Below are positions 33,421 to 54,605 of a stretch of 64,000 bases of DNA, piece after piece. How positions within the stretch are numbered: the stretch's first letter is position 1; the number at the start of each line of letters is the position of its first letter. Source of the stretch: Laspinema palackyanum D2c (GTDB taxonomy: Bacteria; Cyanobacteriota; Cyanobacteriia; Cyanobacteriales; Laspinemataceae). Location: positions 214,460 through 278,459 of the forward strand of contig NZ_JAMXFD010000006.1 in NCBI RefSeq assembly GCF_025370875.1. Reading direction: 5' to 3'. The notes beneath the pieces were generated by a model. The model was not told the DNA's origin. It did not search any database and worked only from the letters and a program-made list of their open reading frames with translations. The position numbers and the translations under genes were made by a program.

Positions 33421-36400
33421 TCAAATTTGGTTTTGAACCAGTTTTTCTAAGAGTGCTCCGATTTTGGCGGAATAAGCTCGGGTATCCAGGCAGGGAACTG
33501 TATTTTGGAAACTCCGGTGAAGTTGCTCCCGATACTGTTCCCGTTGCTTCGGATTGGTCGCTAGGGACACCGCTAAATCAATGTAGGCAGATTCACTCTG
33601 GGCAATCCATTGTCCAAGCTGCAACTCTCGCAATAGGGCCGACGATCGCCGGGTTTGAGGGGCTTCCCCCTCCCGCACCACCATCGGCAGTTCCACTTCT
33701 AAGGGATCCACTAAGGACAAATCCCCGGTATCCGGGTAAGCATCTAAATACAGGTCCGCTTGGTGCAAACTGTCTTTTAGCTCCTGTACAGAATTCAACT
33801 GCTCCATTACTACGAACCGCGTCGGGTCAATTCCATATCGCTGGAATACTATCTGGGTCTGATTGTCGTAGGGACTGGTGCGATAAAACTTGGCCCCCAT
33901 TGCTCCAAAGGGATATAACACCAATATCGAATTAGGCACTGCCGCCAGAATTTTGGCCCAGGTTTCCCGAATCTGAGGACCGATTTTGTTGGTACTGGCC
34001 CCGGAAATAAAGATGATGGTTTCCTCGGGAACCCCCCAACGGTGGCGCGTCGGTTGGATTCGCGCTCGTTCCCCGGGTTGGGGTCGCTTAAAACAGAGTC
34101 CGGACCCTTCCACTGTCACGACTCGTTCCTGATAGTAGTCTTGGAACCGGGGTCCTACCATCAAATCCCCGGTAATGTAGTAATCCATCTGGCGCAGTCC
34201 CGTGGTAGTTGTCACCCAGGCCCCGGTACATTGCACCCTCGCTAAGCGGTGGCAAGCTAATAAGCCGATCGCATTGGTATTGCTGGAAATGTCGCTACCA
34301 ATCAGCAGAATATCCAAATCATCCCCGCGAATTTTCTCCACTTGGTCCCTCAATTTCTGAGGCAGATTCACGAAGCTATCCGCACAATTTTGGCAGGTTT
34401 GTTGCAAGGGGGTCTCTTGCCATGCGATCGCATACAACCGGACCTCAAATTTCTGTCGGTCTAAATGCTCAAAGGCGGCCAAAGTGACCACCGTTTCCTT
34501 CGCCGCAAAAAAGTTATGTTGCAGAATTCCCAGGCGAATTTTACCCCGATAAGGAGGACGAGGGGGAAAGTCATAATCCAGGGTTTGCCCCAAAGTTTTG
34601 AGGGTCAATTCCAGAATTTCCCCCCGTTTCTGGGTAATTTTCAACCCATTCCCTTCCCAAGCGCATAGGGCTTTAAAATTATGGGATTGGATAAAACATA
34701 AGGCAATATACCGCCATAGGTCTGAATGGGGATTTTTCACTAGATGGGAATGGAGATAATTGACCAATCCCTGAATGTAGTGAAAGTATTGTTCTGGTTC
34801 TCCGGGTTCGGAAAAGGTACTGGGTGCGGCAAATAAAAATTGCCAAAAATCCGCGAAAAACCACTTGGGAATTGCTGCGCCGTTATAGGGGAAAGGGAGT
34901 TGATAGGCATCCCGGTACAACATCGCCACGAGAAAAGATTGCATCGCTTTGGGCTGATCCAATCGGGGGGTAATTTCTGACTTTAACTGTTGGACTAACT
35001 CTCTTTCACTGTCCGTCAAGGGTTCATTTTTTACCCCTTTATCGAGCAGGATTTTCGCGTCGATACCCACGCCACTCAAATAGCTGAGTTTAAGTTGATC
35101 GCCGGTTAAACTCAACCAGCGATCGGCGATTTGCTCTCGCAAGGGTCGCAAACAGGCGGGTTCATATTTCCTCGGCACTTTGGCATCATGCAAAATCGGT
35201 TCACTATTCCAAGGGTCGTAAGGAATAAGAGATTGAGCGGACAATTTGGGCCGCATGAAGCAGGTTCCCCGCCGATTGAGCATGGAGGCAACAAAGGAAA
35301 AGGTACTGTTAGAAATCGCCAGAATATTGCAGTGACTTAATAAGTAAAAATCTGGATAAAAGTCGGCTTTCGGTAAGTTGGCCCCCAGGGATTTGGCGGT
35401 AACAGGTTGATATTCGGCAAAATAAGGTAGGACTTTTTCCGGTTCGTCACTGGCAATCAATAAGACAGGTTGATCCAGGGTATTCCAGATTTGGGCTAAC
35501 CAGGTTTTATACCAGATAAGGGGGGCGATGAAAAAGTAGGAAAAGCCATAATCTTTGAGTCGGATATGCAATCCAATAATAGTTTTGCCTTGAGCAAGCA
35601 GGCGATCGCGTACCGGGTCGAGTTGTTGTTTTACCTCGGGGACAGGTTGAAACAGGCGACAAAATTCATCTTTATATTGAGAATAATACTGAGTATTAAA
35701 CTGGAAATAGCCCCAAATATCGACATTTTTTAAAGGAGTTTGCCGTTGCAAAATCGGCGAGTCATCGGCTTGGGTACTGATATCTTTAACTTCAGGTAAA
35801 TTTTTAGATAAGGGGGGGTCTTGATGTCCAAACAAATACTGTCCAATCCATTCCGGAGTTTCTATTCGCAGATCGTGGGTTTGAGCGTAAAGTTTCAAAA
35901 ACCCATACTGAAACAGTTGATTGGCAAACCGTCCATTAGTACCCAGGGTGGAGAGGGTGATTAAAGGTTTTTTGACATAAAACGCATCCCCCCAGGACGG
36001 ATGATAGGGGGTCACTGTTGCCACGCGCTCAAAGTCAAATTGGGCTAATAATTCATCGATTTGGTCAATTAATTGTGTCCCTTCATACAGTTCCTCGTAA
36101 TTGACTTCGGTATTAATTGCTTCGATATGTTGCAGCAGATTTTTTGCCCCTTGAAGGGCTAAAAATTCTGCACCTTGGATATCTAAATTCAATAGATTAA
36201 AATCCGCTGGATTTAACCCTAATTCTGCCAAAAGGGTATCTAGGGTTTTACATTGGACTTGAATTTGATGGGTTTCTCGAATCTCAGGATAATACTCTTT
36301 AACCCGTTTCAGGGGTAAAATAGAACTGGCTGCATCCATTGAGGTGACGTGCAAGATTGCAGTTCCATTAAAATTGGAGATTGCACAATTTACGCCGATC

Positions 36401-38157: not shown

Positions 38158-38179
38158 CGGATTAAAGCCTAAAATTTCT

Positions 38180-39049
38180 ATGCGGATCCTATTTACCCTG
38201 GCTCACTTTTTCAACCCGGATGGGATTGGCAAGTATGGTGCTCAACGCGACGATTCCACACCGCGCATTCAAGCACTCACCCAAAACCTCACTGCATTGC
38301 ACCAGTTATTTGGAAACTCCCAGTATGCCACGGATTATGCCAACCGGGTTGCGATCAGCGCCAATCAATCCCTACAGACTGACATTGAGATTGTGATTTG
38401 CACGACCCAAGGCTACCATATTCTCGATCGCCTGCCCCTCCCCTCCCATTTATGGACCCATCACCCCACAAATGCCGAACCCCTGCTGCTGGGATTTGAA
38501 TGTCAGGCCCTTTTGAGAGAACGCTTAGGCGGGTATGATTATTACTGTTTTCTGGAAGATGACCTGATTTTGCAGGACCCCTGGTTTTTTATCAAGCTGA
38601 ATTGGTTTACCCAACAAGCAGGCGATCGCCATCTCCTCCAACCCAACCGCTATGAACAATCCACCCACCCCGGCATCGGCAAAACCTACATCGATGGGGA
38701 ACTCCACCCCAAAATTACCGCATCCTATCAAAATGTTCACGAACACCCTCAACTCACCGGCATGATTATGGGGACAGCAGTCACCTTTCATCGCACTTGC
38801 AATCCCCATTCTGGCTGTTATTTCTTAAATGCTCGCCAGATGGAATACTGGGTGCAGCAACCCTATTTTTTAGACCGAGATACCCGGTTTGTGGGTCCGT
38901 TGGAAAGTGCGGCGACTCTGGGAATTATGCGGACATTTAAGGTTTATAAACCTGCACCTCCGATGGCTAATTTTTTGGAGGTGCAGCATTTTGGGAGGGT
39001 TTGGAGTGAAAAAATTAGTCAGTTGGTGAGGTGGCAGGGGGATATTTGA
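38180..39049 (+). CDS. Putative GT-A-type glycosyltransferase, paralogue 1
   Basis: A 289-residue protein I do not recognise by name. It opens MRILFTLAHFFNPDGIGKYG and has the conserved core LLGFECQALLRERLGGYDYYCFLEDDLIL, where EDD after a hydrophobic strand looks like a DxD metal site. DPWFFIKLNWF, LLQPNRYE, NPHSGCYFLNARQMEYW and FVGPLESAATLGIMRTFKVYK follow. The same order occurs in the gene at 41026-41892 (roughly 65% alike by eye). No signal peptide or membrane helix. It diverges from the megaprotein gene with only 22 bases between start codons. A glycosyltransferase role is inferred from fold-like motifs and context. Confidence 0.65.
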   Translation: MRILFTLAHFFNPDGIGKYGAQRDDSTPRIQALTQNLTALHQLFGNSQYATDYANRVAISANQSLQTDIEIVICTTQGYHILDRLPLPSHLWTHHPTNAEPLLLGFECQALLRERLGGYDYYCFLEDDLILQDPWFFIKLNWFTQQAGDRHLLQPNRYEQSTHPGIGKTYIDGELHPKITASYQNVHEHPQLTGMIMGTAVTFHRTCNPHSGCYFLNARQMEYWVQQPYFLDRDTRFVGPLESAATLGIMRTFKVYKPAPPMANFLEVQHFGRVWSEKISQLVRWQGDI

Positions 39050-39109
39050 AACACTGATTTCACGAATTTTCACGGAAGAGATTTATAGAAAGAAGGGATT
39101 GATGATTTT

Positions 39110-40831
39110 ATGACGGATTTTGATTATTATGACCGGGTGAATCCAGATTTGTTGAAAGTTTTACCGGCAGATGCGGCGGTGATTATTGAGGTGGGTTGTG
39201 GTGCAGGGGCGATGGGGGCGCAATATAAGCGGATTAATCCTCATGGGCGTTATATTGGGGTAGAAATTAATCAGGAAGCGGCAGCGGTGGCGGGGCAACG
39301 TTTGGATGAGGTAATTGTTGCGAATGTGGAGGATTTTGAGGATGGGCGGCTCAAGTTTGAAGAAGGGTCAGTTGATTGTTTGGTATATGGGGATGTGTTG
39401 GAACATTTGCGTGATCCTTGGCGGGTTCTCCAGCATCATGTGAAATGGTTGAAGGATGAGGGTCAAGTTTTGGCTTGTATTCCAAATATTCAACATTGGA
39501 CGGCGATTGTTAATTTGTTGCGAGGGAGTTGGGAGTATCAGGACCAAGGGTTGCTCGATCGCACTCATTTACGGTTTTTTACGTTAGATGAGGTGAAAAA
39601 GTTATTCCTTCAGGCGGGGTTACAAAGTTATGAAATCCAAACTCGCGGACGAAAACCTCCGGCGTTTCAGCAGTTCCAGCAGTTAATGGCCCCGGTGGTT
39701 CAAGGGTTAGGAATTGACCCGAAAACGTTTGAAACTCAAACGGGGGCGATTCAATATGTGGTGAGAGGGATTAAGTCGGAAGTGCCGCCGAGACGGTTAT
39801 TAATTCAGACGATTATTATGGCCCCAACGGGGTGCGATCGCCCCCGGGTGTTGGAACCCGATCGCCTCAGTGCGACGATTCCAGGGGTGCGAACAATCTC
39901 CGAGGTGCGATCGGCTAATTTGAATGCAGCACTCCCTCAAGAGGAAAAAGTCTTTATCTGGCAGCGGACCATTATGGACTATCCCGAAGATGTGGTCAAA
40001 CTCAAACAATTGTTGCAACTCGGCTATTTAATTATAGCCGAAATTGATGATGATCCCCTGCGTCGTCCGGAATATGAAAAGAATCTGTTTCTAAGTTATC
40101 GAGGTTGTCACGGCGTGCAAACTTCTACGGAGCCCTTGGCGGATTTTTTACGCCAATATAATCCCAATGTGGCAGTCTTTAAAAATCAATTGGGCTATTT
40201 ACCCCCGAAACGAACTTATTCTGATGAGCAGACTTGTACTATCTTTTTTGGGGCGCTCAATCGTGAGGCGGATTGGCAACCGATTATGCCGGAGTTGAAT
40301 CGGGTTCTGCAAAAATATAAGAAACAAGTCCGGGTAAAAGTGCTGCACGATCGCCAGTTTTTTGAGCAACTACAGGTCAAGAATAAGGAGTTTTTACCCT
40401 TCTCTCCTTATGAAACTTATCAGGAGGTGTTGCATAGCTGTGATGTGGCATTGCTGCCTTTGACGCCGACTCGGATTAATAGTATGAAGTCGGATTTAAA
40501 GTTTCTGGAATGTGCCGGTCATGGGGTGGCAGTGGTTGCAAGTCCGACGGTCTATGAGAAAACGATTATTGAGGGAGAAACGGGGTTAATTTATCGCTCA
40601 GAAGCGGAGTTTGGTAAAACGTTGGAATCTTTAATCCGAGAAGTGGATTTGCGGAGGGGTTTAGGGCAGAATGCTTATCAGTGGGTGGCTGAAAATCGCT
40701 TGCTTTCTCAGCATTATCGGGAACGTCACCAGTGGTATTTGTCCCTGCGCGATCGCCTCCCCCAGTTGAATCAAGAATTGCGCGATCGGCTACCGGAGTT
40801 GTTTGAGGTAACACCAACCGGCGGGGGTTAA
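39110..40831 (+). CDS. Fused SAM methyltransferase and GT4-like glycosyltransferase
   Basis: A 573-residue cytoplasmic fusion. Residues ~1-220 are a class I methyltransferase ([48 protein letters not shown]). Residues ~230-560 are a GT-B-like domain: [38 protein letters not shown] and [24 protein letters not shown], the last being the donor-site region of GT4. It may methylate a glycan and extend it, or methylate its own product; which is not deducible. It lies 60 bases after paralogue 1 and before paralogue 2, all on the plus strand, so one transcript is likely. Confidence 0.75.
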
Positions 40832-40835
40832 AACC

Positions 40836-40916
40836 TAATAGCTAAAGTCGGTTAAAACCGACTGAAAACACCACGGGATAACACTTTTAGTCGGTTTTAA
40901 CCGACTTTAGCTATTA
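40836..40916. repeat. 81-bp near-perfect palindrome
   Basis: Arms 40836-40863 and 40889-40916 are exactly complementary over 28 bases, with a 25-base centre that is partly paired. Each arm itself contains an inner palindrome (GTCGGTTAAAACCGAC). It lies five bases after a stop codon. A terminator or a small mobile palindromic element are both possible. Confidence 0.7.
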
Positions 40917-40966: not shown

Positions 40967-40977
40967 TTGCCACTTGC

Positions 40978-41014: not shown

Positions 41015-41025
41015 AACTGATATCT

Positions 41026-41892
41026 ATGAAAATACTGGTCACGATCGCGCATTATTTCAATCCCGATGGCGGAGGGAAACATGGATCTCTGAGCAAAGAC
41101 CCGCGATCGCGGATTGTGGCATTGAGTCAGTCTTTAACCCACTTGGGCGCAATTTTAGGGAAATATCAAGGTCTGCTGGATATCGCTAAATCTGTAGCAA
41201 TCCCCGCGAATCAGGGTCAAGGCTTAGATATTGACATCGTGATTTGTACCACTCAAAACCGCCATGTTTTAGACAAGTTGCCCGTTCCCCATCAGATTTA
41301 CCACCATCACGCCACCCAAGCAGAACCCTTGATGCTGGGGTTTGAATGTCACGCCCTGTTGCGGGATAGTTTGGGTCGCTATGATTATTATTGCTATTTG
41401 GAAGATGACCTCATCCTCCATGACCCCTGGTTTTTTATTAAATTAAACTGGTTTTCCTCCCAAGCGGGAGATTTGAATCTGTTGCAACCCAATCGCTATG
41501 AAATTTCGCCTCCCGGTCGGGTAGGTAAGGTCTATATTGATGGGGATTTATTACCTAGGGCAACGGCCCAGTTTCAGAAGGTGGAGGACCGCCCAGAGTT
41601 GAAGGGCAATATCATGGAGCAACCTGTAGTCTTCCAACGAGCGCTCAATCCTCATTCGGGATGCTTTTTTCTGAATGCCAAACAGATGGCCTATTGGGCG
41701 TCTCAGCCTTATTTTTTAGACCGCGATACCAGTTTTATCGGCCCCTTGGAAAGCGTAGCCACTCTCGGCATCATGCGAACTTTTAGAATCTATAAACCCG
41801 GTCCCGCTTATGCCAGTTTCCTGGAGATTCAGCATTTTGGCACCGCATTTCTCAACCTAATCGGTCGAGGCATTAATATCTCTCCCGGATAG
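41026..41892 (+). CDS. Putative GT-A-type glycosyltransferase, paralogue 2
   Basis: A 288-residue paralogue of the protein at 38180-39049. It keeps the N terminus (AHYFNPDGGGKHG), the acidic core CHALLRDSLGRYDYYCYLEDDLIL, DPWFFIKLNWF, LLQPNRYE, NPHSGCFFLNAKQMAYW and FIGPLESVATLGIMRTFRIYKPG. The spacing of these blocks is unchanged, so the two come from a duplication with the methyltransferase-GT4 fusion between them. Differences are concentrated in the loops between blocks, which could change acceptor choice. Function is inferred, not known. Confidence 0.65.
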   Translation: MKILVTIAHYFNPDGGGKHGSLSKDPRSRIVALSQSLTHLGAILGKYQGLLDIAKSVAIPANQGQGLDIDIVICTTQNRHVLDKLPVPHQIYHHHATQAEPLMLGFECHALLRDSLGRYDYYCYLEDDLILHDPWFFIKLNWFSSQAGDLNLLQPNRYEISPPGRVGKVYIDGDLLPRATAQFQKVEDRPELKGNIMEQPVVFQRALNPHSGCFFLNAKQMAYWASQPYFLDRDTSFIGPLESVATLGIMRTFRIYKPGPAYASFLEIQHFGTAFLNLIGRGINISPG

Positions 41893-41995: not shown

Positions 41996-42017
41996 ATTGG
42001 ATTCAGTTAACTGAAAT

Positions 42018-44846: not shown

Positions 44847-45014
44847 GGGAATTGCTATCAATAGGATAAATTTCGGCTAATTATTACGAAGTTGTAATTG
44901 TTGCTTTAGACCCAGACGATGCTATCCCTTGCATTGCATAAGGCAAAGTAGAGGTAGGGAGCAGTTTTGATTTAGGATTGCTATGGGAGTCAAGACCGAA
45001 AATCGGTGGGGATC

Positions 45015-45020
45015 AAGGAG
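45015..45020 (+). promoter_or_regulatory. Ribosome-binding site AAGGAG fixing a GTG start
   Basis: AAGGAG touches the ATG at 45021 directly but lies six bases before the GTG at 45027, the usual spacing. This favours GTG 45027 as the start of the TPR-GT41 gene. Confidence 0.5.
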
Positions 45021-45026
45021 ATGTCA

Positions 45027-47423
45027 GTGAGTGATCTGGAAAAATCGGGGGTTTGGATCCAGCGGGGCCATCAGTTGAGAGCAAAGGGGCAGTGGTCCGA
45101 AGCGATCGCCCTTTATCAAGAAGCCCTAAACTTTAACCCGGATGCGGTGGAGGCTTATTGTCAACTGGGAGACATCTATTGGCGGCAGGGCCAACTAACT
45201 GAGGCGATCGCCCACTGTCAAGGGGCGCTCAAACTGGCCCCTCAATCCGCCGAGGCTTACAAGACCCTGGGTAATATCCTCCAATCCCAACAAAAATGGG
45301 CAGCGGCGGAACGCGCTTATCAACAGGCGGTGCTGATTCTGCCCGAGTTTGTTGCAGCTCATGCTAATCTGGGCAGCCTCTACTATCACCGGGGGGAGTC
45401 GGAACGAGCGATCGCCTGCTATCAAAAAGCCCTCTCCCTGGAACCCTCCCAAGCGGGTATTCACTGGAACCTGGGGAGGCTCTATCAGGATCTAGGCCGG
45501 TTCGGGGAGGCCCTAGAGTCCTGGCAAGATGCCTTACGCCTGGAACCGTCTATGGGAACCGCAGAACGGCATTTAACCATCGGAAATACTCTCTTAACCC
45601 AGGCCCGAGTTGAGGAGGCGATTCACCACTACCAACAGGCGATCGCCCTCGAACCCAATTTCTCCCAAGCGCATTCTAATCTCGGCAACGCCCTAATCCA
45701 ACAGGGAGCCTTAGAGGGTGGGATTGCGGCCCTGAAAACTGCCCAATCCCTCAGCCCCCAGTTAGCAGGGATTCATTACAATTTAGGTCAAGCCCTTCTA
45801 CAACAAGGGCATCAGCATAAAAATCTCAGTGGATCAGCATGGCAAGAGGTCGTGGACTGCTTTCTTCAGGCGATCGGCCTCGATGCCAACTTAATCTCAG
45901 CACACCATGCCTTGTTCTATCTGATTCGCTCCCGAGACCCCTTCGGCATCGATTTTGACTCCCTGCGACAAGCGGCTGAAGACTATTTAAGCCGGGCCCA
46001 AGGCCCCACCAGACTGTTAGCGGCCCTCCCCTATCTCTCCTTATGTTTACATGGGGGATACAGCAATTTAGCCCTGGAAACCTTTCTTACCCTAGAAACA
46101 CAGATTCAGTCTGACCTGGATCGCCTAGACCTCGACTCGATCGCCTTGCTTTATTCTCGCCTGATGTTTTCTCAACCCCATCTACGCGATGATGCTAGGG
46201 CTAATCTAACCTTGGCGAAACGCCTCGCATCTAAAAATCAAGCCCGCCTCAACCAACAACCAATCTCCTCCCCGCATCCCCCCCATCCCCCCACTCTCCC
46301 CCATCTAAAAATCGGCTTCCTCTCTCCTCATTTCCGCCGCCATTCTATCGGATGGTGTAGTGCAGATATTCTGCGCGAGTTAGCGGCCCTATCGGCTGAA
46401 CTCTATCTGTATGTGACTCAATATCAAGGGACGGATGATAAAACTCAAGAGTTTAAAAACCTAGCCACCCAATTTTATCAACCGCAAAGTGCTAATTTTG
46501 AATCTGCCAAATTAGAGATTTTTGAGCAAATTCGCCAGGACAAAATTGATATTTTAATAGACTTAGATTCAGTCACCTGTTATGAGCAGTTAGAAATTTT
46601 GTACCGTCAACCTGCCCCGATTTGCCTCTCTTGGCTGGGATTTGACGCGCCTTTTTTATCTTCAGCCCATTACTTTTTAGGCGATCGGCACACCCATCCC
46701 CCAGGCATTGAAGCCGAGTACATCGAGCAGTTACTCCGAATGCCCGATTCCTTTGTGGCGGTTTCTGGATTTAAGCGTCAATCCGTCGAGCGAGAAGTGG
46801 TGCGCTTGAGCCTAGGAATCAGTTGGAAACAGATTGCTTACCTCTGTGTCGCCCCGGGTAAAAAACTGAATTGGGAGTTGGTTTTAGCCCAAATTACAAT
46901 CCTTAAACAGGTCCCCAATAGTGTGTTAATCCATAAAGGCGAAGGAGAGCGATCGGCGATTTTGGAGCTCTATCAACAAGCCTGTACTCAGTTGGGAGTA
47001 CCCAGCAGTCGGGTTATCCTAATATCCCGAAGTAAAACCGAGGAACAGCACCGGACTATCTACGAATGTGCGGATATTTTATTAGATTCCTATCCTTACA
47101 ATGGCGGCACCCATACCCTAGAAGCCTTGTGGTTTAACCTGCCCCTTGTCACCCGAGTGGGAGAACTCTGTTTGGCTCGGATGGGATATTCTTTTCTTAA
47201 CACCCTAGGCATTGAGAGTGGAATTGCCTGGAGTTGGGACGAGTATATCCAGTGGGGAGTTCGCTTGGGTCAGGAGTTGAAAGTTCGCCAAGACATTCGC
47301 CATCAATTAATCCGGTCTAAGCAACCCAAACACCTATCTCCCTTGTGGAATCCCGCTAAATTTGCTCAAGATATGTATGAAATTTTTGAAGCCCTAAAAA
47401 AACAGCAAGTTCGTATCCATTAA
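45027..47423 (+). CDS. TPR-GT41 O-linked GlcNAc transferase-type glycosyltransferase
   Basis: A 798-residue cytoplasmic protein. About seven TPRs fill residues ~10-275 (for example AIACYQKALSLEPSQAGIHW). The C-terminal GT41 catalytic region begins KIGFLSPHFRRHSIGW, with the His that OGT uses, then ICLSWLGFDAPFLSSAHYFLG and LLDSYPYNGGTHTLEALWFNLPLVTRVG, matching the UDP-sugar site of OGT/SPINDLY. It should transfer a sugar to Ser/Thr of partner proteins bound by the TPRs. The linker SPHPPHPPTLPH is encoded by the C-tract repeat found elsewhere. It precedes a DUF3288 gene by 27 bases. Confidence 0.85.
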   Translation: MSDLEKSGVWIQRGHQLRAKGQWSEAIALYQEALNFNPDAVEAYCQLGDIYWRQGQLTEAIAHCQGALKLAPQSAEAYKTLGNILQSQQKWAAAERAYQQAVLILPEFVAAHANLGSLYYHRGESERAIACYQKALSLEPSQAGIHWNLGRLYQDLGRFGEALESWQDALRLEPSMGTAERHLTIGNTLLTQARVEEAIHHYQQAIALEPNFSQAHSNLGNALIQQGALEGGIAALKTAQSLSPQLAGIHYNLGQALLQQGHQHKNLSGSAWQEVVDCFLQAIGLDANLISAHHALFYLIRSRDPFGIDFDSLRQAAEDYLSRAQGPTRLLAALPYLSLCLHGGYSNLALETFLTLETQIQSDLDRLDLDSIALLYSRLMFSQPHLRDDARANLTLAKRLASKNQARLNQQPISSPHPPHPPTLPHLKIGFLSPHFRRHSIGWCSADILRELAALSAELYLYVTQYQGTDDKTQEFKNLATQFYQPQSANFESAKLEIFEQIRQDKIDILIDLDSVTCYEQLEILYRQPAPICLSWLGFDAPFLSSAHYFLGDRHTHPPGIEAEYIEQLLRMPDSFVAVSGFKRQSVEREVVRLSLGISWKQIAYLCVAPGKKLNWELVLAQITILKQVPNSVLIHKGEGERSAILELYQQACTQLGVPSSRVILISRSKTEEQHRTIYECADILLDSYPYNGGTHTLEALWFNLPLVTRVGELCLARMGYSFLNTLGIESGIAWSWDEYIQWGVRLGQELKVRQDIRHQLIRSKQPKHLSPLWNPAKFAQDMYEIFEALKKQQVRIH

Positions 47424-47449
47424 ATTAATAAAGGAGGATCTCCAGAATT

Positions 47450-47737: not shown

Positions 47738-47784
47738 TCTGAGGACATCGGTAGAGTATTCAATGAGGTCAATCATCGGGGACA

Positions 47785-47850
47785 AGAACCCGAGTTTCTA
47801 GCGGAATTTGTTGCTAATGAGCAGAGTTTTTGTCAAGAAACCCGGGTTCT
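47785..47850. repeat. Palindromic 66-bp element, copy C
   Basis: Ends AGAACCCGAGTTTCT and AGAAACCCGGGTTCT are inverted repeats of the family at 10377-10525. It fills the gap between the DUF3288 stop and the stop of the convergent gene, 24 bases from the latter. Confidence 0.7.
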
Positions 47851-47874
47851 ATAGTGGGGGACGATTAATTCCGA

Positions 47875-50800
47875 TTAACCATTCACCCAATCCGGTAAAG
47901 GTTGGTTGGAGAGAGGGAGGCGATCGCGATGTTGATATAACAGAACCGCGAGGAGTGCATTCATTCCTAATGGCGCATCTAGTCCCCGGGTCAATTTAGC
48001 CATTAACTCTTGCACAAAGGGCTGTTCTGTCTCTAGTAAGGGATGATTTTGAATGCCACTGTTGAGGACACTTTGATGAGCTTTACCCAAGTCACTGCTA
48101 TAGCATTCGCGCAGGCGATCGCTAGGTATCTGCAACCACAACTCAGCAAATTCTCGCCGCAGTTGGAGCAATTCACGTTGAATGGATTCATCAGACGGAT
48201 CAATATAATACAGATTGGCACAACCAACCAGGCGATTGAGAAATTCCTGAGAAACAGAGACCCGTGTAGCGGGAGTGGGAGTGGAGGTAGCACTCGCCAT
48301 TGTCCCCGAATTCTCTCTCCCTTGAAACAATTGCTCAAACAAATTCGCCATTTTTTGGCCGTAAGCAGCACTATCTAAAAAGGGAGGATTCTGCTGCATT
48401 TGTCCCTGGATTTGCTGGCAATAATATTGGCGCAGTTGAGGATTGGTTGCCAGATTAATCGCTAATTGGATATAACCCCGTTCGTCCTGGGCAATTAAAT
48501 CACCCAGGGAGATTTCCCGCAGGAGTGCAGAAGCTTGGCGGGACCTTAAGGTACTGTCTTCCCAGGCGATCGCCGGAATTCCCAGTTGTAACGGATCCAG
48601 CAAAGAAGTTGCCCCACTATAGGGATAGGAGTCTAAATAAACATCGGCGAGTTTGACGCATTCTTTAATATCCGCTGGACTCGGTAAAGTATTAATCAGA
48701 ACTAACCGCCGTTTATCAATGCCATGTTGGGCAAAAATTCGGTGGAGTCGTTCCAAAAACGGCATCGCCGGATAAGCGGAATTCCAGGCCGGACCAAAGG
48801 GATATAACACCAAAATAGAATGGGGAACGGCGGCGAGAATTTTGGCCCAAGTTTCGGTGAGTTCGGGAATAATTTTGTAGAAGTTGGCACCGGACATAAA
48901 CACCACGGTTTGCTCCGTTGCACCCCAGCTTGCCCGAGTCGGATTGACGGTGGAGGCGGGTTCAGGTAAAGGGAACCGGAAACATAATCCAGACCCTTCT
49001 ATATTGACCAGTTTCTCGCGGTACTGTTCACTGCTGGTGTTAGTAGGTGCGGTTAAATTCCCGGCAATATAGTAGTCGATATTGCGGATGCCCGTGGTAA
49101 CCGGAGAGGCAATGGAGGTGACTTGGACTCGGGCGAGTCGGTGTTGGGCGAGGGCGGTTAAGGGTTTATTGAGTTCGGTAATATTGGTGCCGATGAATAG
49201 GATATCTAGGTCATCGTTGCGGAGGGCTTGGACTTGTTCTAAGAGGGGTTCTGGTAGTTTCACGAGGCGATCGGCCCGACTTTGACAATACGATTCTAGT
49301 TGGCTGCCATTGACCCAAGCCGCATAGAGAACAATCTCAAACCGATCGCGAGCCAAATGTTCAAAAACTGGCAAGGTTGCCAAAGTTTCCGTTGCTGGAT
49401 TGAAATGGTCTCTCAAAATTCCCAGCCGAATTTTGGGGCGATTTTCCGAACGGGGGGGAAAGACGTAATCCACTTGAAATCCCCGATTCTTGAGGGCAAA
49501 TTTAATAATCTCTGCTCTGTGAATATACAGAGATTTCAGGTTAGCATGGCTAAAGTAAAGCGGCGCAAAGTTGGCATTTTCCTGGGTGAAAAACTCCGCG
49601 ACGCTTTGCCAGAGAGGTGAGTCGGGATTGGTGAATATTTTCTCATGGACATATTCTATCCAACCTTGGAAATAGCGATAGTATTGTTCGACTTCTCCAG
49701 GTTCATGGAACAGGGTAGGACTGGCAAACATAAATTTGAGATAGTCCTGGGCGAACCATTTGGGAATCGGTGCATTGGTGTAGGGAATCTGGAGTTGATG
49801 GGGATAGCAATAGAGGGTAGCGGTAATGAAGGATTGCAAAGCCTTGGGGGCATCAAATCCCTGGGCAATTTGGGTGGAAAGTTGACGGATGAATGCTTGT
49901 TCAGTGGGAGTGAGCGGGTGATGTTTGATGTCAGTCTCTAGGAGGGCTTTATGGGCGGTTCCCAGTTCCCCTAAATAGGCGGATTGTAATTCTTCTTCGG
50001 GGGTATTTAACCATTGCTGGGCCAGTTGCTGGCGGGTTTGCTGGAGGGTATCGCGCGGGTGGGAACTGGCTGGAATCGCAGGTTTTTGGGAGGGGGTAGA
50101 TCTGAGGCGATCGCACAGTTGTTGGGCTTCAGAAAAATCGGGCGCGTTCTGCAAAACTGTGGTTAAGGCTTGTTCCGTTAAAGGAATATTATTGACTTGA
50201 GCAGCCGATTGTGCAATGTACCAAAAAATCCGCCAATGGTTGCATCCGAGGGCTGTCGCCTTTTGAAATTCGGCGATTGCTTCAGCGTGTTGTTGCTGTT
50301 GTTGCAGAATCAATCCGGACCAAAATCTCAAATAGCCATCATCGGGGTAGGCATTTTTATAATGTAAAATCCCTCCGGAACCATAACTATAGAGTAAGAT
50401 AGATGAGTCAGCAATTTTGCGATCGCTTTCCCATAATTCCTCTAATTCTTGTCCCATCATGCTTTGGGCAAATTGTGGAGCGGTATCCCCCAAGGATTCA
50501 ATAAATAAATCCGCGCCGGAAAGGCGTTGACTGGCTCCGATGATATCTCGGAGAGAAACGGTTTGTTGCAGCAGATTAGAAGTTCTATCAACGCCCCATT
50601 GTCGGTCTTGTTTCGGACCTTGCATCAGAGTGTCATAAATCTGATTAAGCTGTTTTGCCGCAATTTCTACATCAAAAATTTGGGAGGCATATTCTTTAGC
50701 ATTTCGCCCTAATCGGTACCGTTCTTCGGGATGGTGATAGAGATATTCGATCGCCTGTTTGTACTCTAATTCACTGCGAACGATTAATCCCGTATAGTTA

Positions 50801-51663
50801 TCCACCACAAGCTGTTTAACTCCTCCATAAGGGAAAACCACCGGCGGCACCCCGGCATACATTACTTCTTGTAAGTTTAATTCGGCAGCAGCATAAGTAT
50901 CTTCGCAAAGGGGATATCCATAAACGTCTAGGGTTTCAATGACGGATTTTATATCTTCCACATAATCGCGAATTTCAAAGCGATCGCCTACACCGAGTTG
51001 TTGGGCTTGCTGTTGTAAGTATTGTCCCATCCCCGGACCACAAATAATAAACCGGATATTGGGAATGGCGATCGCCGCGCTCATGGGGACATAATTGCGA
51101 TGCATTTTACAAAAATGGACAGTCCCAATGTAACCAACATTAAACGTGCTATGGGGTTGCGGTTGCAAGTTTGACAAGCGAGCGAAATCCGCTGTGTCAT
51201 AAACCATGCGGGTTTTTTTCAACTTCACTTCAGGAGCCAAACTCTGAAAGACTGAATTTTCGTAAGTGTACGGACTACAAGCGATTGCAAAATCTGCATA
51301 ATCAATTAAGGGTTTCGTCACCACTTGCGGAGGTTTATCCCCAGCAATATGAAACCAGATTACCAATCGCATCGGCGGTAGTTTCGACTGCAAAAACTCA
51401 TACAGTTCGGGAACATTCCAAAAATGCACCTGCACAATATCAGCCCTTTGCAGTTCCGCTGTTAATCGGGCGCGATCGGGCGCATTAATCACAGAAATTC
51501 CAGCCGCTTGAGCGATTTCTAATGCCCGAGTATCCAGAGGCAGCAGCGAAATGACCTGATGCTGAACCTGACTCTGTTGTGAAGAGTATTTTGCCGTCGC
51601 AATCAGAGCACGCGCCGCGCCGCCTAAAGACAGTTGTTGAATAATATGAATAATTTTAGTCAT
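47875..51663 (-). CDS. GT4-TPR-GT41-like megaprotein with a truncated C-terminal duplication
   Basis: A 1262-residue cytoplasmic protein. Residues 1-345 are a GT4-like glycosyltransferase (IIQQLSLGGAARALIATA, NVGYIGTVHF, LNLQEVMYAGVPPVVFPYGG). Residues ~425-515 are TPR-like. A helical module (~540-700, APIPKWFAQDYLKFMFASP) precedes the GT41-like region ~744-1115 (KIRLGILRDHF, HRLARVQVTSIASP, VYLDSYPYSGATSLLDPLQLG). Residues ~1155-1262 repeat the first 100 residues of the helical module, then stop at LPDWVNG where the first copy goes on. It lies eight bases after the 977-residue gene, so both are one operon. The GT41 part resembles that of the 1578-residue protein. Confidence 0.75.
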   Translation of the reverse strand: MTKIIHIIQQLSLGGAARALIATAKYSSQQSQVQHQVISLLPLDTRALEIAQAAGISVINAPDRARLTAELQRADIVQVHFWNVPELYEFLQSKLPPMRLVIWFHIAGDKPPQVVTKPLIDYADFAIACSPYTYENSVFQSLAPEVKLKKTRMVYDTADFARLSNLQPQPHSTFNVGYIGTVHFCKMHRNYVPMSAAIAIPNIRFIICGPGMGQYLQQQAQQLGVGDRFEIRDYVEDIKSVIETLDVYGYPLCEDTYAAAELNLQEVMYAGVPPVVFPYGGVKQLVVDNYTGLIVRSELEYKQAIEYLYHHPEERYRLGRNAKEYASQIFDVEIAAKQLNQIYDTLMQGPKQDRQWGVDRTSNLLQQTVSLRDIIGASQRLSGADLFIESLGDTAPQFAQSMMGQELEELWESDRKIADSSILLYSYGSGGILHYKNAYPDDGYLRFWSGLILQQQQQHAEAIAEFQKATALGCNHWRIFWYIAQSAAQVNNIPLTEQALTTVLQNAPDFSEAQQLCDRLRSTPSQKPAIPASSHPRDTLQQTRQQLAQQWLNTPEEELQSAYLGELGTAHKALLETDIKHHPLTPTEQAFIRQLSTQIAQGFDAPKALQSFITATLYCYPHQLQIPYTNAPIPKWFAQDYLKFMFASPTLFHEPGEVEQYYRYFQGWIEYVHEKIFTNPDSPLWQSVAEFFTQENANFAPLYFSHANLKSLYIHRAEIIKFALKNRGFQVDYVFPPRSENRPKIRLGILRDHFNPATETLATLPVFEHLARDRFEIVLYAAWVNGSQLESYCQSRADRLVKLPEPLLEQVQALRNDDLDILFIGTNITELNKPLTALAQHRLARVQVTSIASPVTTGIRNIDYYIAGNLTAPTNTSSEQYREKLVNIEGSGLCFRFPLPEPASTVNPTRASWGATEQTVVFMSGANFYKIIPELTETWAKILAAVPHSILVLYPFGPAWNSAYPAMPFLERLHRIFAQHGIDKRRLVLINTLPSPADIKECVKLADVYLDSYPYSGATSLLDPLQLGIPAIAWEDSTLRSRQASALLREISLGDLIAQDERGYIQLAINLATNPQLRQYYCQQIQGQMQQNPPFLDSAAYGQKMANLFEQLFQGRENSGTMASATSTPTPATRVSVSQEFLNRLVGCANLYYIDPSDESIQRELLQLRREFAELWLQIPSDRLRECYSSDLGKAHQSVLNSGIQNHPLLETEQPFVQELMAKLTRGLDAPLGMNALLAVLLYQHRDRLPLSNQPLPDWVNG

Positions 51664-51671
51664 GATTTTTT

Positions 51672-54605
51672 TTACTGGGCAGGTTTGCGATAGGCTCGAA
51701 TCGTTGAATAGACCCCGGGAATAATCGGTAAATGGGCTTGAGTTTGCGTCGGATCTGTGGGATAGAGTAAGGGAATATCCAGAATTTCACAACCATAAGT
51801 ATTTTCCATCAACTCCTGACAGGCTTGGCGAATCCCCGGTTCCTGATTCCCATGATGGAAGAAAATCGCATCTCGATTCTGGTCGTTCAGGACGGGTAGA
51901 TAATCATGGAACATCATAATCCCCTCCGGTGCTAAGAGGGGAAAATAATTGAGAATATCCTGCTTTACTCCGGGATAAGTATGATCTCCATCTACAAAAA
52001 TAAACCCGGGTTGATTTCCATCCTTTTCCCAGATTTGGGGAAATTTTCCCGCAGCTTGATGGGAAAATAACCGCCAATGACTGACCTCCGGTTGCACCTG
52101 TTTTAACACTTCATAAAATTGCGGTTGTCCCCCGGGTTCTACGGCAAATCCAGCCATCGCCCGATCCATCCGTTTTAAGATTTTCCAGGTTAAAAATAAC
52201 GAGGCCCCAGCATAAGAGCCAATTTCTATAAATCGCAGGGGGTTGGATGTTTTAGAGACGAGGTGACGCAGGGTGTAGTAAAGTTGAAATCTTTCATTCG
52301 CTGACATTTGACTTTCAATCCCATAAGCGACCGGATCATCCTGGGCAAATTCAGCAATTATCTGCGCTTCTAATTCCGGATTAACTGGGAATTTATCAGG
52401 TTTTACAAACCAAACTCCGGTGTTGTCAATGGGTTTAATTTCCAATTTTATCTGACGCTGGGTTTCAAATTCATGAACCGCTTGGCGACATCCGTCCCAG
52501 TACCCATAGTCATCAACTTGAATCACCCCTTCATTGACTACTCGATCATATAAGTTCTGTAAAATCGTTTGGGTTGATTCGTACCAATCTCCATCAATAT
52601 GCAGCAATGCAATCATCCCCATCGGATTTTGCATTTTCGGTAAGGTGTCTTGGAAATAGCCTTTGATCAGTTTGACCCCGTTGATTACACCCAGTTGAGT
52701 ACAAATTTCTCGAACACTGGTTTCCGGCGCAGCACAGGTCCCTGTTCCCCACCCCGTTGCTTCTGCGGGGATGCCGTTATGTTTGTCCTCTGCTGTGGGG
52801 GTTGGCATTCCTTCAAACGAATCACAGGCATATAACCACCGGGGTTGTTTGCTGTAGCGTTTCATGACAGCAGCCATTAATGCCGTTGATCCGCCACCGG
52901 CGACGCCACATTCGACAATATTGCCGGGAATATTTTGTAAACAGAGGGTTTTGGTGAGGGAAAATAGGGAATAGAGGCGGAGTTCGCTTAACATGGTGTA
53001 AGGGCGAATGATCCGGAGCAGTTCCTGAAATTCCGGGTCATCAATTGGGGCGGAATTGTGAGAAGAAAGTTGCGACAAAATGCGATGGCGCAGGGTTCGG
53101 GCTTCAGTATTGTTGGGGAAATATCGCAATTCTTCGTTTAAGGCTTCTTTGGCTCCCTCAAGTTGATTCAGATTGATAAAGCAGATGGCTCGCAAATAAT
53201 CTAATCCCGGAGTCGGTTGCCGGAATGATTTGGCTTTTGCTAATTCATGAAAAGCGGCATGAATTTGGTTACTTTCTAAACTCATTTGGGCGGCTTTCAT
53301 TAAATCTAAAGCCGAATGAGGGGGCTGAAGTTCAGTCACTAATTGCCGCGCTTTGGGATGGGAAGGAAAGACAGATAACAAGTGATTGAGGCTGGCGATC
53401 GCGTCAGACTGCCGGTCCAGTCTAGCTAAAGCAACGGCTTTGCCATAATGTAACCCCGGGAGATCCGGTGAAGTGGTGATCGCCTGTTCCCATAGTTTTA
53501 ATGCCTCTTGATTGTTGTTAGCGTTGAGCTCTCGTAAGGCGTTCTGGATTAAAACATCTCGATTCAACATACCCTGAGCAGAAGGTTGAGGATGACTCGA
53601 TTCCTCAGTCCGTTCTAGTCGTTTCCTAGAGATAAATCCAGCTTTCCTGGAAGCGGGTTTTTCAAATTGCTGTTTCCAGTTTTTAAGCCCCTCCCAATCT
53701 AAGCGAATTTTTGTTGCCCAGCTTTGATGAATTAAGGCTTTTAAATGAGTTGGAAGAGTCGGGCGTTCTATAATCGGTAAATTAAAATTCCGGCCCATTT
53801 CCACTGCCCGGTTATCAATGCCGACAATAATTGATCGCCGCTGGTGTTGTAAGGAGCGAATCCCAGCAGAGAGACGATTTCCAACATAATCCAAGGCTTG
53901 GTTAGAGCTTAACAGTTCATCAAGAGCTTCTAACGAAGGTTCGATGAAAACCAGGCGACTGCCCCCAATTTTGTGGGCATACTCATAGTCTCCATACATT
54001 TGGGCCCAAAAATAAATCCTAGAATAGTTTTCAGATAAAATTTCAAATAAAATTCGGTCAAAATGAGGATTTTGGTTATATTCTGTAAAGGTTAAAAGTA
54101 CCTGATCTGCTTTTTGAGTGGGAATACCAGCGCAATGGTCTGGGGTTAACCACCAGAGGGTGGGACAGCCCGTATTGATGACATTAAATCCTAAAGAACT
54201 CAACTTTTGAGCGGTGTAATCATCCCGGACTGAATGAGCCGCTTGTTGATGCAGCACGGAATTTAACAGAGAACGGGTATAATCATTGATTTCCTGGCTT
54301 TGATATTGCCCCCAGCCCAGTCCCATTAAAATAACTTTATTTTGCCAAAATCTTTCTTGAGGTTTGATGCACCATTGACTGGTCGCTTCCATATTGGAAC
54401 TGAGGAGATTAGTGCCAGCCAAAAAAACATAATCTGCCTGATGAATTTTAGAACGTCCAGATTGAAGATATTCGAGGGCGGGAACTCGATAAAAAAAATC
54501 TTGAGGAAAAATTTCTTGGAGGCGCTGTTCGACTGCTTCTACAATAATTTTAGTACCTAAATTACTATTGTTAGTCCAAGTATCTAAAATGACAATTCGT
54601 TTCAT
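51672..54605 (-). CDS. Pyruvyl transferase-like, TPR and two methyltransferase domains in one protein
   Basis: A 977-residue cytoplasmic protein. Residues ~1-295 match the polysaccharide pyruvyl transferase family (VILMGLGWGQYQSQEINDYT, NVINTGCPTLWWLTP). Residues ~350-510 are TPR-like. Residues ~525-735 are a TylF/MycF-type O-methyltransferase (NIVECGVAGGGSTALMA, the metal site LLHIDGDWYEST with VDDYGYWDGCRQAV). Residues ~740-977 are a second SAM-dependent methyltransferase (FIEIGSYAGASLFLTW, FIFVDGDHTYPGVKQDIL, MMFHDYLPVL). It would ketalise and methylate a sugar chain. It lies directly upstream of the GT4-TPR-GT41 gene. Domain calls are firm except for the activity of the first. Confidence 0.75.
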   Translation of the reverse strand: MKRIVILDTWTNNSNLGTKIIVEAVEQRLQEIFPQDFFYRVPALEYLQSGRSKIHQADYVFLAGTNLLSSNMEATSQWCIKPQERFWQNKVILMGLGWGQYQSQEINDYTRSLLNSVLHQQAAHSVRDDYTAQKLSSLGFNVINTGCPTLWWLTPDHCAGIPTQKADQVLLTFTEYNQNPHFDRILFEILSENYSRIYFWAQMYGDYEYAHKIGGSRLVFIEPSLEALDELLSSNQALDYVGNRLSAGIRSLQHQRRSIIVGIDNRAVEMGRNFNLPIIERPTLPTHLKALIHQSWATKIRLDWEGLKNWKQQFEKPASRKAGFISRKRLERTEESSHPQPSAQGMLNRDVLIQNALRELNANNNQEALKLWEQAITTSPDLPGLHYGKAVALARLDRQSDAIASLNHLLSVFPSHPKARQLVTELQPPHSALDLMKAAQMSLESNQIHAAFHELAKAKSFRQPTPGLDYLRAICFINLNQLEGAKEALNEELRYFPNNTEARTLRHRILSQLSSHNSAPIDDPEFQELLRIIRPYTMLSELRLYSLFSLTKTLCLQNIPGNIVECGVAGGGSTALMAAVMKRYSKQPRWLYACDSFEGMPTPTAEDKHNGIPAEATGWGTGTCAAPETSVREICTQLGVINGVKLIKGYFQDTLPKMQNPMGMIALLHIDGDWYESTQTILQNLYDRVVNEGVIQVDDYGYWDGCRQAVHEFETQRQIKLEIKPIDNTGVWFVKPDKFPVNPELEAQIIAEFAQDDPVAYGIESQMSANERFQLYYTLRHLVSKTSNPLRFIEIGSYAGASLFLTWKILKRMDRAMAGFAVEPGGQPQFYEVLKQVQPEVSHWRLFSHQAAGKFPQIWEKDGNQPGFIFVDGDHTYPGVKQDILNYFPLLAPEGIMMFHDYLPVLNDQNRDAIFFHHGNQEPGIRQACQELMENTYGCEILDIPLLYPTDPTQTQAHLPIIPGVYSTIRAYRKPAQ

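Follow-up and report, generated by a model that had tools for sequence, protein, structure and literature searches.

Oscillin of Phormidium uncinatum, an RTX protein of 646 residues, is highly glycosylated; SwmA, the RTX protein of the S-layer in swimming marine Synechococcus, is glycosylated too, and both have been linked to cyanobacterial motility (PMC3034196). Swimming of such Synechococcus stops upon disruption of three glycosyltransferases (cited in PMC4293000), and swmA lies on a common genomic island with a glycosyltransferase (PMC7522525). The locus reported here has a presumed substrate of the same kind, but the available portions of these three papers do not describe the oscillin or SwmA glycan enzymes as giant modular proteins.

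SPINDLY, OGT and HMW1C/NGT have their fold and the sequence of their catalytic half in common with the GT41 modules of this locus; here, in contrast, GT41 is fused behind GT4, GT2, FkbM or other methyltransferase modules, with a helical N-domain replacing the TPRs. GT41 enzymes act on proteins. The serine-rich repeat glycoprotein (SRRP) pathway is Gram-positive, uses accessory Sec export and modifies a serine-rich substrate, all of which differ from our locus; to our knowledge it includes neither type I secretion nor an RTX substrate, and none of its enzymes is a giant that combines methyltransferases with a terminal GT41. Neither do we know of a GT41 enzyme in the WsaE system of Geobacillus. 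As described in the available part of its literature, the SRRP pathway (Fap1/SRRP with Gtf1/2, Gtf3, dGT1, GalT2, Gly and accessory Sec) resembles our proposal in its sequential intracellular O-glycosylation of a single surface protein by enzymes of one cluster, a bifunctional transferase included, and in its dedicated export (PMC5207161). WsaE, which serves the synthesis of an S-layer glycan, combines a methyltransferase and two rhamnosyltransferases in one protein and has its methyl-cap enzyme at the N-terminus; the same source, as far as available, describes lipid-linked assembly and a predicted oligosaccharyltransferase, unlike what is proposed here (PMC2943079). No system with the present layout was found in the open-licence PMC literature, which leaves most subscription papers outside, in agreement with the original prediction made from the DNA sequence.

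Gene content and conservation of the locus

The window (the whole 64,000-nucleotide stretch of Laspinema palackyanum D2c that was analysed) had been predicted to hold a block of giant modular proteins. This block is real but incomplete, as it constitutes half of a larger locus. Within the block lies the gene for an RTX protein of 689 aa, and next to it are the genes of a type I secretion set, PPIase, ABC exporter and HlyD (Pfam); the prediction had included neither. The features are as follows.

23821..26922, plus strand: CHASE - histidine kinase - receiver - nucleotide cyclase protein, 1033 aa (Pfam)
26996..29020, minus strand: HlyD-type adaptor of type I secretion, 674 aa (Pfam HlyD_3)
29133..32255, minus strand: ABC exporter, 1040 aa (Pfam)
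32201..32947, minus strand: PPIC/SurA-like peptidyl-prolyl isomerase, 248 aa (Pfam Rotamase)
33421..38157, minus strand: giant 1, 1578 aa (Pfam)
38180..39049, plus strand (likely start; listed ORF start 38111): GT-A-like glycosyltransferase copy 1, 289 aa, Pfam-orphan family
39110..40831, plus strand: methyltransferase - GT4-like fusion (MT-GT4), 573 aa (Pfam)
41026..41892, plus strand: GT-A-fold glycosyltransferase copy 2, 288 aa, Pfam-orphan family (model, Foldseek)
42018..44087, minus strand: RTX repeat protein, 689 aa (Pfam HemolysinCabind)
45006..47423, plus strand: TPR - GT41 protein, SPINDLY-like, 805 aa (Pfam)
47875..51663, minus strand: giant 2, 1262 aa (Pfam, junction alignment, model and Foldseek)
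51672..54605, minus strand: giant 3, 977 aa, part of a swapped cassette (Pfam)
54799..55212, minus strand: small conserved protein, 137 aa, without Pfam match

The window (G000) was compared with seven relatives from the same genus (G001-G007). The backbone order, HlyD-ABC-PPIC-giant1-GTA-MT/GT4-GTA-RTX-TPR/GT41-giant2-flank, is complete in five of the seven. The backbone of G001 and that of G003 are each divided between contigs, and the partial view of them in the fetched stretches is wholly consistent with this order; conservation of the backbone in 7/7 holds as far as the fetched stretches show. Identities across all seven relatives were 95-99% for the HlyD adaptor, 95-98% for the ABC exporter, 96-98% for the isomerase and 94-98% for the 137-aa protein, which marks the conserved flank of the swapped cassette. 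The exporter has an N-terminal cyclic-nucleotide-binding domain and a C39-like domain, which by alignment seems to be without the catalytic cysteine, read here against what we take to be the C39 motif. The gene for the CHASE kinase-cyclase protein, a possible regulator of the adjoining exporter, lies beside HlyD in five of the seven relatives (G003, G004, G005, G006 and G007); at this position in G001 and G002 it was not observed. Elsewhere in the window, an rml/PGM/GT cluster occupies 11.4-23.5 kb. No Rfam family and no tRNA was detected in the window, and promoter and terminator patterns around the RTX gene were not more frequent than in shuffled sequence.

The RTX protein

The RTX protein matched PF00353 in three stretches (E 1.7e-25) and is cysteine-free and RTX-like over its entire length, with six strict nonapeptide repeats only and many degenerate ones. 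Both the repeats and the nearby ABC exporter and HlyD adaptor, kept in 7/7 relatives, are as expected for an RTX substrate of type I secretion. The protein was found at 73-92% identity in five of the seven relatives (G002, G004, G005, G006 and G007), and its gene was not visible in the fetched stretches of G001 and G003. Nineteen RTX sequences, that of the window included, span 531-723 aa, a range that contains the 646 residues of oscillin (one sequence has exactly this length), the comparison being one of length. At 16.5% serine plus threonine, the window protein is not serine-rich in the manner of SRRP-type substrates.

N-x-S/T sequons were considered as a sign of HMW1C-like N-glycosylation. 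The window protein has nine where 6.2 are expected (p 0.15), and several relatives have a clear excess; since NDS/NDT fits the RTX consensus itself, the argument was dropped. RTX repeats are abundant in this genome (156 repeat matches), which weakens arguments from neighbourhood. The RTX protein is presumed to be the glycoprotein substrate of the locus.

Glycosyltransferase modules

The predicted methyltransferase-GT4 and TPR-GT41 proteins were both recovered by Pfam. PF13844 scored above its cut-off in giant 1, giant 2 and the TPR-GT41 protein, giving all three the GT-B core, and among solved structures the three modules are closest to two protein glycosyltransferases, SPINDLY and OGT: the TPR-GT41 protein matched SPINDLY at E 4.2e-70, and the model of the giant 2 module matched SPY and TtOGT by Foldseek (E 2.0e-24 and 2.2e-24). 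An assignment to HMW1C/NGT was rejected, as sequence matches to NGT structures were weak (8p0q, E 6e-4; 3q3e, E 0.06) and AaNGT ranked only 50th by fold, with SPINDLY and OGT closer. TPRs precede the GT41 core in the 805-aa protein (Pfam); in giants 1 and 2 this place is taken by a helical N-domain without TPR match (Pfam; model for giant 2). A lysine of giant 2 aligns with the SPINDLY lysine in the sugar-nucleotide site, at what we take to be the conserved position. Giants 1 and 2 both have this residue; across an alignment of 27 GT41 modules, 19 have it and eight lack it, so that some GT41 modules may be non-catalytic.

Neither of the two predicted GT-A-like proteins has a Pfam match. One claim to the fold comes from the model of copy 2 (pLDDT 93), whose best Foldseek match is the GT-A enzyme GalNAc-T1 (E 1.3e-6), and an EDD motif (E126, D127, D128) is invariant across 44 sequences. 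The GTG start at 38111 listed for copy 1 is probably wrong, as relatives align from about residue 24 and one of them begins there. The gene likely starts at 38180, which leaves it without overlap with the 1578-aa gene.

Architecture of the giant proteins

The three minus-strand ORFs of 1578, 1262 and 977 aa carry FkbM (twice), GT41, GT4, pyruvyl-transferase, TPR and TylF domains, as predicted and now confirmed by Pfam. Giant 1 reads FkbM - unassigned (SAM-like?) - FkbM - GT11-like - helical domain - GT41; PF05050 matches it twice (118 bits), and PF13844 scores 72.5 bits. Its predicted GT11 domain falls just short of the cut-off (20.4 against 23.9 bits), whereas a 2292-aa relative (L063) with 60% identity to this part scores 34.3. 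The predicted SAM-fold domain fared less well: residues 276-500 have no Pfam match and only a chance-level PDB match (E 0.3), and their SAM-like look comes from sequence only. The giant 1 fusion is found end to end in 7/7 same-genus relatives at 87-93% identity and is therefore not a product of chance.

Giant 2 consists of GT4 (61.9 bits), a TPR-like linker, a helical domain, GT41 (92.5 bits) and a second helical domain, and shares a helical-GT41 unit with giant 1 (44% identity). Several giant-2-type relatives have one to three further copies of the helical N-domain behind GT41. Giant 3 comprises a pyruvyl-transferase-like domain (PS_pyruv_trans, 66.9 bits), TPR, TylF (166.7 bits) and Methyltransf_24 in two stretches. 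It occurs in three of the eight genus genomes (the window, G003 and G006), which makes "possibly pyruvylated" a weak general statement about the glycan, and in its relatives from other genera (L062, L071 and L073) the N-terminus has no BLAST match to the pyruvyl-transferase domain. No carrier or tethering domain was seen among the Pfam matches of the three giants and 13 giant relatives, in which sizeable stretches are without match. The description "assembly-line-like" fits the fused modules but lacks such a carrier.

Exchange of N-terminal modules in giant 2

The GT41 C-terminus of giant 2 is retained in all eight genomes at 84-96% identity. The first ~510-550 residues are swapped, and these N-terminal modules, together with the neighbouring sugar genes, occur in five versions that are incongruent with the backbone tree. 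The giant 2 versions show a nested-suffix pattern. The 1262-aa giant is of type A, and L. palackyanum D2a, a close relative, has a type B giant of 2093 aa. As read from the alignments, a constant GT41 C-terminus combined with exchanged N-terminal modules is new and resembles serotype switching. Giant 2 of the window is 89% identical over its whole length to those of G003 and G006, whose backbones are 93.0-93.1% identical to that of the window, and G004 and G005 share 90% in giant 2 and 93.3% in the backbone. These values, below those of the backbones, speak against the idea that the swapped part was transferred very recently, and the alleles look old rather than freshly moved.

Recurrence in other cyanobacteria

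Parts of the backbone recur together in other filamentous cyanobacteria. One locus (L065) combines RTX, GT-A, MT-GT4, a giant GT41 protein and PPIC-ABC-HlyD; another (L075) has RTX, TPR-GT41, a giant, GT-A, PPIC and ABC; L073 has RTX, TPR-GT41 and giants 2/3; and G009:C1:4.09-4.12 Mb has RTX, TPR-GT41, MT-GT4, GT-A and the exporter. Relatives of giant 2 adjoin TPR-GT41 and RTX in L060, L073 and L075. Relatives of giant 1 lie in 20 stretches of other genera, 13 of which have neither RTX nor PPIC-ABC, including those with the giant-2-type proteins of Microcoleus-like genomes (L064, L067, L069 and L074, and also L072, L076 and L077). Microcoleus-like genomes keep GT-A, MT-GT4 and a PPIC-adjacent giant with the exporter, and giant-2-type proteins elsewhere.

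A search with the GT-A family gave 189 loci, and neighbourhoods were counted in the best 80 of them. An RTX ORF was present in 40 of these 80 (37 by a stricter rule), at a median gap of 170 bases and within 1.5 kb in 33 of the 40; a short PPIase plus ABC exporter was present in 25 and an MT-GT4 protein in 33. No partner at all was found in 21, 11 of them with full flanks of more than 20 kb. As a control, 20 arbitrary 20-kb stretches contained RTX once, in a stretch that is the G009 copy of the locus. Seventeen loci have a long PPIase ORF (465-713 aa), in every case a fusion of the PPIase with a GT4 glycosyltransferase, and RTX accompanies the fusion in all 17 (16 by the stricter rule); in Nostocales, a glycosyltransferase fused to PPIase lies near RTX genes. 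In a phylum sample of 386 genomes, GT-A (E <= 1e-3; 45 hits) and MT-GT4 (E <= 1e-40; 28 hits) co-occur in 19, against 3.3 expected if independent. The two are adjacent in 11 of the 19 and far apart in seven.

Discussion

The observed domains, conserved neighbourhood and allele swaps, and the GT41 and GT-A folds as models, are probably those of a dedicated export-and-glycosylation system for an RTX surface protein in a gliding filamentous cyanobacterium. Our inferences concern the substrate (the RTX protein), the sequence of the steps, the sugars and a role in motility. In the cytoplasm, the unfolded RTX chain would be primed on side chains by SPINDLY/OGT-type GT41 activity of the TPR-GT41 protein and the giants' GT41 modules. 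Extension and capping of the sugar by the GT-A, GT4, GT11-like and pyruvyl-transferase modules would follow, and its methylation would fall to the methyltransferase modules (FkbM, TylF and others), with fusion into giants holding successive enzymes beside one acceptor. The finished glycoprotein would exit through the PPIase-ABC-HlyD type I system and, once outside, fold with calcium into oscillin-like fibrils or into an S-layer. The glycan would change when giant 2 exchanges its N-terminal modules, along with the sugar genes next to it, while the secreted protein, its exporter and the GT41 closest to the protein would stay constant. A more specific version, unlikely in our estimate, is that on a secreted protein the giants work as colinear assembly lines for a glycan, where the constant C-terminal GT41 would set the protein-linked sugar and modules successively N-terminal to it would add the next sugar or methyl group, so that exchange or addition at the N-terminus would rewrite the outer glycan in a serotype-like manner.

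Alternatively, the product of the giants could be a surface polysaccharide (O-antigen, capsule, sheath or slime), made on a free acceptor or a lipid, with RTX and exporter as neighbours by chance or shared regulation. GT4, GT2, pyruvyl-transferase, TylF/CmcI and C-methyltransferase modules are typical of polysaccharide loci, the window's rml/PGM/GT cluster would fit, and giant-2 relatives lie away from RTX genes in several genomes. This is nonetheless unlikely, as one block holds three GT41 modules of a protein-modifying family, and the GT4-PPIase fusion and 170-base median gap to RTX (in the best 80 of 189 loci) tie glycosyltransferases to an exported protein. Moreover, no Wzx/Wzy, Wzm/Wzt or lipid-carrier primer family was detected among 28 scanned ORFs at 11.4-60.3 kb, a subset of the window's ORFs of which five had no Pfam match or a chance match only. 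A division into two systems, with TPR-GT41, GT-A and MT-GT4 glycosylating the RTX protein and giants 2 and 3 with the cassettes making an unrelated, merely co-located glycan, would account for the separate placement of giant-2-type proteins in Microcoleus-like genomes. We consider it quite improbable, given the helical-GT41 unit common to giants 1 and 2 and the position of giant 2 beside TPR-GT41 and RTX, both in the window's genus and among relatives outside it. The predicted modular, methylating glycan-building system acting on protein is well supported by three GT41 modules around an RTX protein and its exporter.

On our reading of a glycosylated, exported RTX protein, the locus names a candidate enzyme set for the sugars of RTX motility proteins, beside the protein and its exporter, and its parts recur in genera that range from Laspinema to Trichodesmium, Microcoleus and Nostoc. 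Glycoengineering, too, would benefit from an enzyme for protein glycosylation that is modular and swappable. The five exchangeable versions of giant 2 in eight close genomes constitute a natural experiment linking modules to glycan structure, and if the glycan is a target of phages or grazers, which is a guess, the locus would be a serotype-like escape system.

A type I exporter and an RTX protein accompany the modular giants

The block of giant glycosyltransferase-methyltransferase proteins was found to hold a gene for an RTX protein and to lie near a type I secretion set, both of which were absent from the original prediction. The features, with Pfam domains, are as follows.

26996-29020, minus strand, HlyD
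29133-32255, minus strand, ABC exporter with cyclic-nucleotide-binding and C39-like domains
32201-32947, minus strand, PPIC isomerase
33421-38157, minus strand, giant 1 (1578 aa), FkbM twice and GT41
38180-39049 (listed ORF from 38111), plus strand, GT-A gene
39110-40831, plus strand, MT-GT4 (573 aa), methyltransferase and GT4
41026-41892, plus strand, GT-A gene
42018-44087, minus strand, RTX protein (689 aa; PF00353, E 1.7e-25)
45006-47423, plus strand, TPR-GT41 (805 aa), TPR and GT41
47875-51663, minus strand, giant 2 (1262 aa), GT4 and GT41
51672-54605, minus strand, giant 3 (977 aa), pyruvyl-transferase, TPR, TylF and Methyltransf_24
54799-55212, minus strand, small flank protein (137 aa)

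The ORF coordinates bore out the positions first proposed for the three giants and their neighbours, and Pfam recovered most of the domains named for them, adding Methyltransf_24 in giant 3. A GT11 module proposed in giant 1 scored 20.4 bits against a cut-off of 23.9, but a 2292-aa relative, 60% identical over the module, passed. No match was found for the SAM-fold stretch proposed in the same protein. The two genes described as GT-A-like had no Pfam match, but the fold model of one (pLDDT 93) matched GT-A enzymes, best GalNAc-T1 (E 1.3e-6), with modest TM-scores of 0.32-0.48 by query length among the 50 matches listed. An EDD motif and 16 further residues were invariant in 44 aligned GT-A sequences. 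Giant 2 ends in a second copy of a helical domain (residues 1150-1262; 47878-48216), and up to three copies follow GT41 in related giants. This domain, which in the giants stands both before and after GT41, is matched by a ~305-aa protein of small-genome cyanobacteria that has no Pfam family (L179:16144-17064 and L181:13528-14439, loci of other genomes).

The C39-like domain appears to be without its cysteine in the exporter and in 10 aligned relatives, judged by alignment against the C39 motif. Exporters of unprocessed RTX proteins are expected to carry a C39-like domain without this cysteine. The RTX proteins are 531-723 aa long with at most one cysteine each (19 sequences, including that of the window). 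RTX genes are frequent in the 7.03-Mb genome holding the window, which weakens arguments from gene neighborhood. A CHASE-kinase-receiver-nucleotide cyclase gene (23821-26922) adjoins the exporter with its cyclic-nucleotide-binding domain, which hints at a gating of export by cAMP or cGMP. The cyclase gene sits beside HlyD in five of seven same-genus relatives. A separate cluster at 11429-23496, with GT4, GT2, phosphomannomutase-like and dTDP-rhamnose (RmlA-, RmlC- and RmlD-like) genes, could supply rhamnose.

The neighborhood is conserved within the genus and in part beyond it

Giant 1 was present end to end in all seven same-genus genomes (G001-G007; 87-93% identity). Five of these (G002, G004, G005, G006, G007) showed the full order of HlyD, ABC, PPIC, giant 1, GT-A, MT-GT4, GT-A, RTX, TPR-GT41, giant 2, small flank protein and cation efflux. 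The order was split over two contigs in G001 and G003, where the fetched stretches showed some of the genes, the RTX gene not among them, and all visible genes agreed.

Twenty stretches from other genera were picked for holding a giant-1 relative. An RTX ORF was seen in four (L060, L065, L073, L075) and PPIC with ABC in five (L059, L061, L065, L070, L075), with neither in 13. L065 held, in a row, RTX, GT-A, MT-GT4, a 1318-aa GT4-GT2-GT41 giant, PPIC, ABC and HlyD; L073 held flank genes, giant-3 and giant-2 relatives, TPR-GT41 and RTX; and L075 held ABC, GT-A, PPIC, GT-A, RTX, TPR-GT41 and a giant. Giant-2 relatives also occurred away from RTX genes in several genomes. In another genome with a copy of the locus (G009), the GT-A gene and the RTX gene are separated by a gene for a 2579-aa protein (L198:7425-15164) that has a TPS secretion domain and ends in a CHAT domain.

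RTX genes recur beside the GT-A family

As an independent test, GT-A relatives were collected by scanning one genome per species. The best 80 of 189, which included filamentous Oscillatoria, Laspinema, Microcoleus, Okeania, Trichodesmium, Lyngbya, Nostoc and Calothrix as well as some MAGs, were read to up to 10 kb around, many ending at contig ends. An RTX ORF was present in 40 of these 80 loci (37 by a stricter rule) and in 28 of the 49 full-length ones, at a median gap of 170 bases and within 1.5 kb in 33 of the 40. MT-GT4 was present in 33 of the 80, a short PPIase with ABC exporter in 25 and a GT41 module in 25; no partner at all was seen in 21, 11 of them full-length. Only one of 20 arbitrary 20-kb control stretches (five genomes) had an RTX ORF, and this was the G009 copy of the same locus, with TPR-GT41, HlyD, ABC, PPIC and MT-GT4.

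Among 386 genomes sampled across the phylum, 45 had the GT-A family (E <= 1e-3) and 28 had MT-GT4 (E <= 1e-40). Both occurred together in 19, against 3.3 expected if independent, in counts that ignore relatedness; the two were adjacent in 11, both at contig ends in one and apart in seven. GT-A relatives also occurred in 11 small genomes (about 2-3 Mb) of another family, and in five of these an RTX gene and a ~305-aa helical-domain relative were nearby in two, PPIC-ABC-HlyD in one and none of these in two.

Seventeen of the best 80 GT-A loci carried a long PPIase ORF (465-713 aa), and all 17 had both a GT4 and a PPIC half. For example, the 703-aa relative at L194:177-2288 has GT4 in its first 400 residues (PF12000, E 6.9e-73) and ends in a PPIC isomerase domain. 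The set, whose hosts we take from their names to be Nostocales, includes one N-terminally shorter protein (L107) and two loci from one strain (L109 and L112). An RTX ORF was present in all 17 (16 by the stricter rule). The fusion joins a glycosyltransferase to an isomerase found alongside the exporter in other loci, which is direct, if circumstantial, evidence that RTX glycosylation would be coupled to folding or export.

GT41 modules point to protein as the acceptor

SPINDLY was the closest solved sequence to the GT41 parts of giant 2 (E 9.2e-31) and giant 1 (E 4.1e-18) and to the catalytic half of TPR-GT41 (E 4.2e-70), the TPR half of which matched TPR proteins and OGT. A model of giant 2 residues 545-1262 (pLDDT 88.9) matched the structures of SPY and OGT at E values near 2e-24, with AaNGT ranking 50. 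To our knowledge, the acceptors of all characterized GT41 enzymes are proteins, and mainly for this reason the block is read as a protein glycosylation system; part of it may serve polysaccharide synthesis. GDP-fucose is the donor of both SPINDLY and GT11 enzymes, so an O-fucose link to protein is a reasonable guess, no more.

Giants 1 and 2 have the sugar-nucleotide-site lysine that aligns with that of SPINDLY. In eight of 27 GT41 modules (L070, L075, L098, L124, L129, L144, L146 and L150), seven of them in PPIC-adjacent giants, T, Q or A stands in its place. Some GT41 modules may thus be inactive, and the lysine-replaced ones are possibly acceptor-binding pseudo-enzymes.

Giant 2 exchanges its N-terminal modules

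Giant 2 occurred in five versions among eight genomes.

Versions of giant 2 (length, genomes, Pfam modules)
1262 aa (type A); window, G003, G006; GT4, GT41
2093 aa (type B); G004, G005; GT2, Methyltransf_24, GT4, GT41
1811 aa; G007; GT2, two GT4 stretches, GT41
1834 aa; G001; GT2, two GT4 stretches, GT41
2674 aa; G002; GT4, Methyltransf_24, TylF, Methyltransf_11, further GT4 (three GT4 stretches in all), GT41

The C-terminal ~710 residues were common to all (84-96%), and pairwise matches to the window protein started between residues 511 and 551, where the unit formed by the helical domain and GT41 begins or slightly ahead of it. Sharing shrank toward the N-terminus: the last GT4 module was common to G001, G002, G004, G005 and G007, a longer part was shared by G001 and G002 (76% over 1533 columns), and the remaining N-terminal parts differed. 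An N-terminal GT2 common to G001 and G007 (60%) was an exception to strict nesting.

The adjoining genes varied with the allele. The window allele has giant 3, while the G004 allele has nucleotidyl transferase, sugar dehydratase-like, C-methyltransferase, 3,5-epimerase, epimerase and rhamnosyl O-methyltransferase-like genes, a putative pathway to a C-methylated deoxy-sugar. Neither giant 3 nor this gene set was seen with the G002 allele. In a tree of five backbone proteins, the window (type A) and G004 (type B) were sisters with support 1.0, and G006 and G003 (type A) grouped with G005 (type B; support 0.93). The giant-2 alleles and the backbone therefore disagree. The small flank protein was 94-98% identical across the swap. 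In Microcoleus sp. FACHB-DQ6 (L144), a 1606-aa ORF near the left part corresponds to the 1273-aa giant of M. vaginatus (92%) with ~340 residues, which include a GT2-like match, added at the N-terminus, a habit like that of giant 2 in the Laspinema group.

Proposed mechanism and known systems

Each part of the locus is of an already known kind. The original prediction that no system with such a layout had been described held in our searches of open-licence literature, which did not return a system that combines an RTX substrate and type I export with modular giants that end in GT41 and exchange their N-terminal modules from species to species.

Related systems have been described. Gliding Phormidium bears surface fibrils of oscillin, a 646-residue RTX glycoprotein, and a known protein of the same sort in swimming Synechococcus is SwmA (PMC3034196). 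Disruption of three glycosyltransferases abolished Synechococcus swimming (as cited in PMC4293000). WsaE joins a methyltransferase and two transferases in one enzyme (PMC2943079), and SRRP surface proteins are glycosylated stepwise inside the cell before dedicated export (PMC5207161), as proposed here. The nested sharing among giant-2 versions is the sole basis for reading the giants as colinear, with the C-terminus corresponding to the inner sugar and the N-terminus to the outer. On the best reading of the locus, the RTX protein would be glycosylated and methylated stepwise in the cytoplasm and then exported by the type I system.
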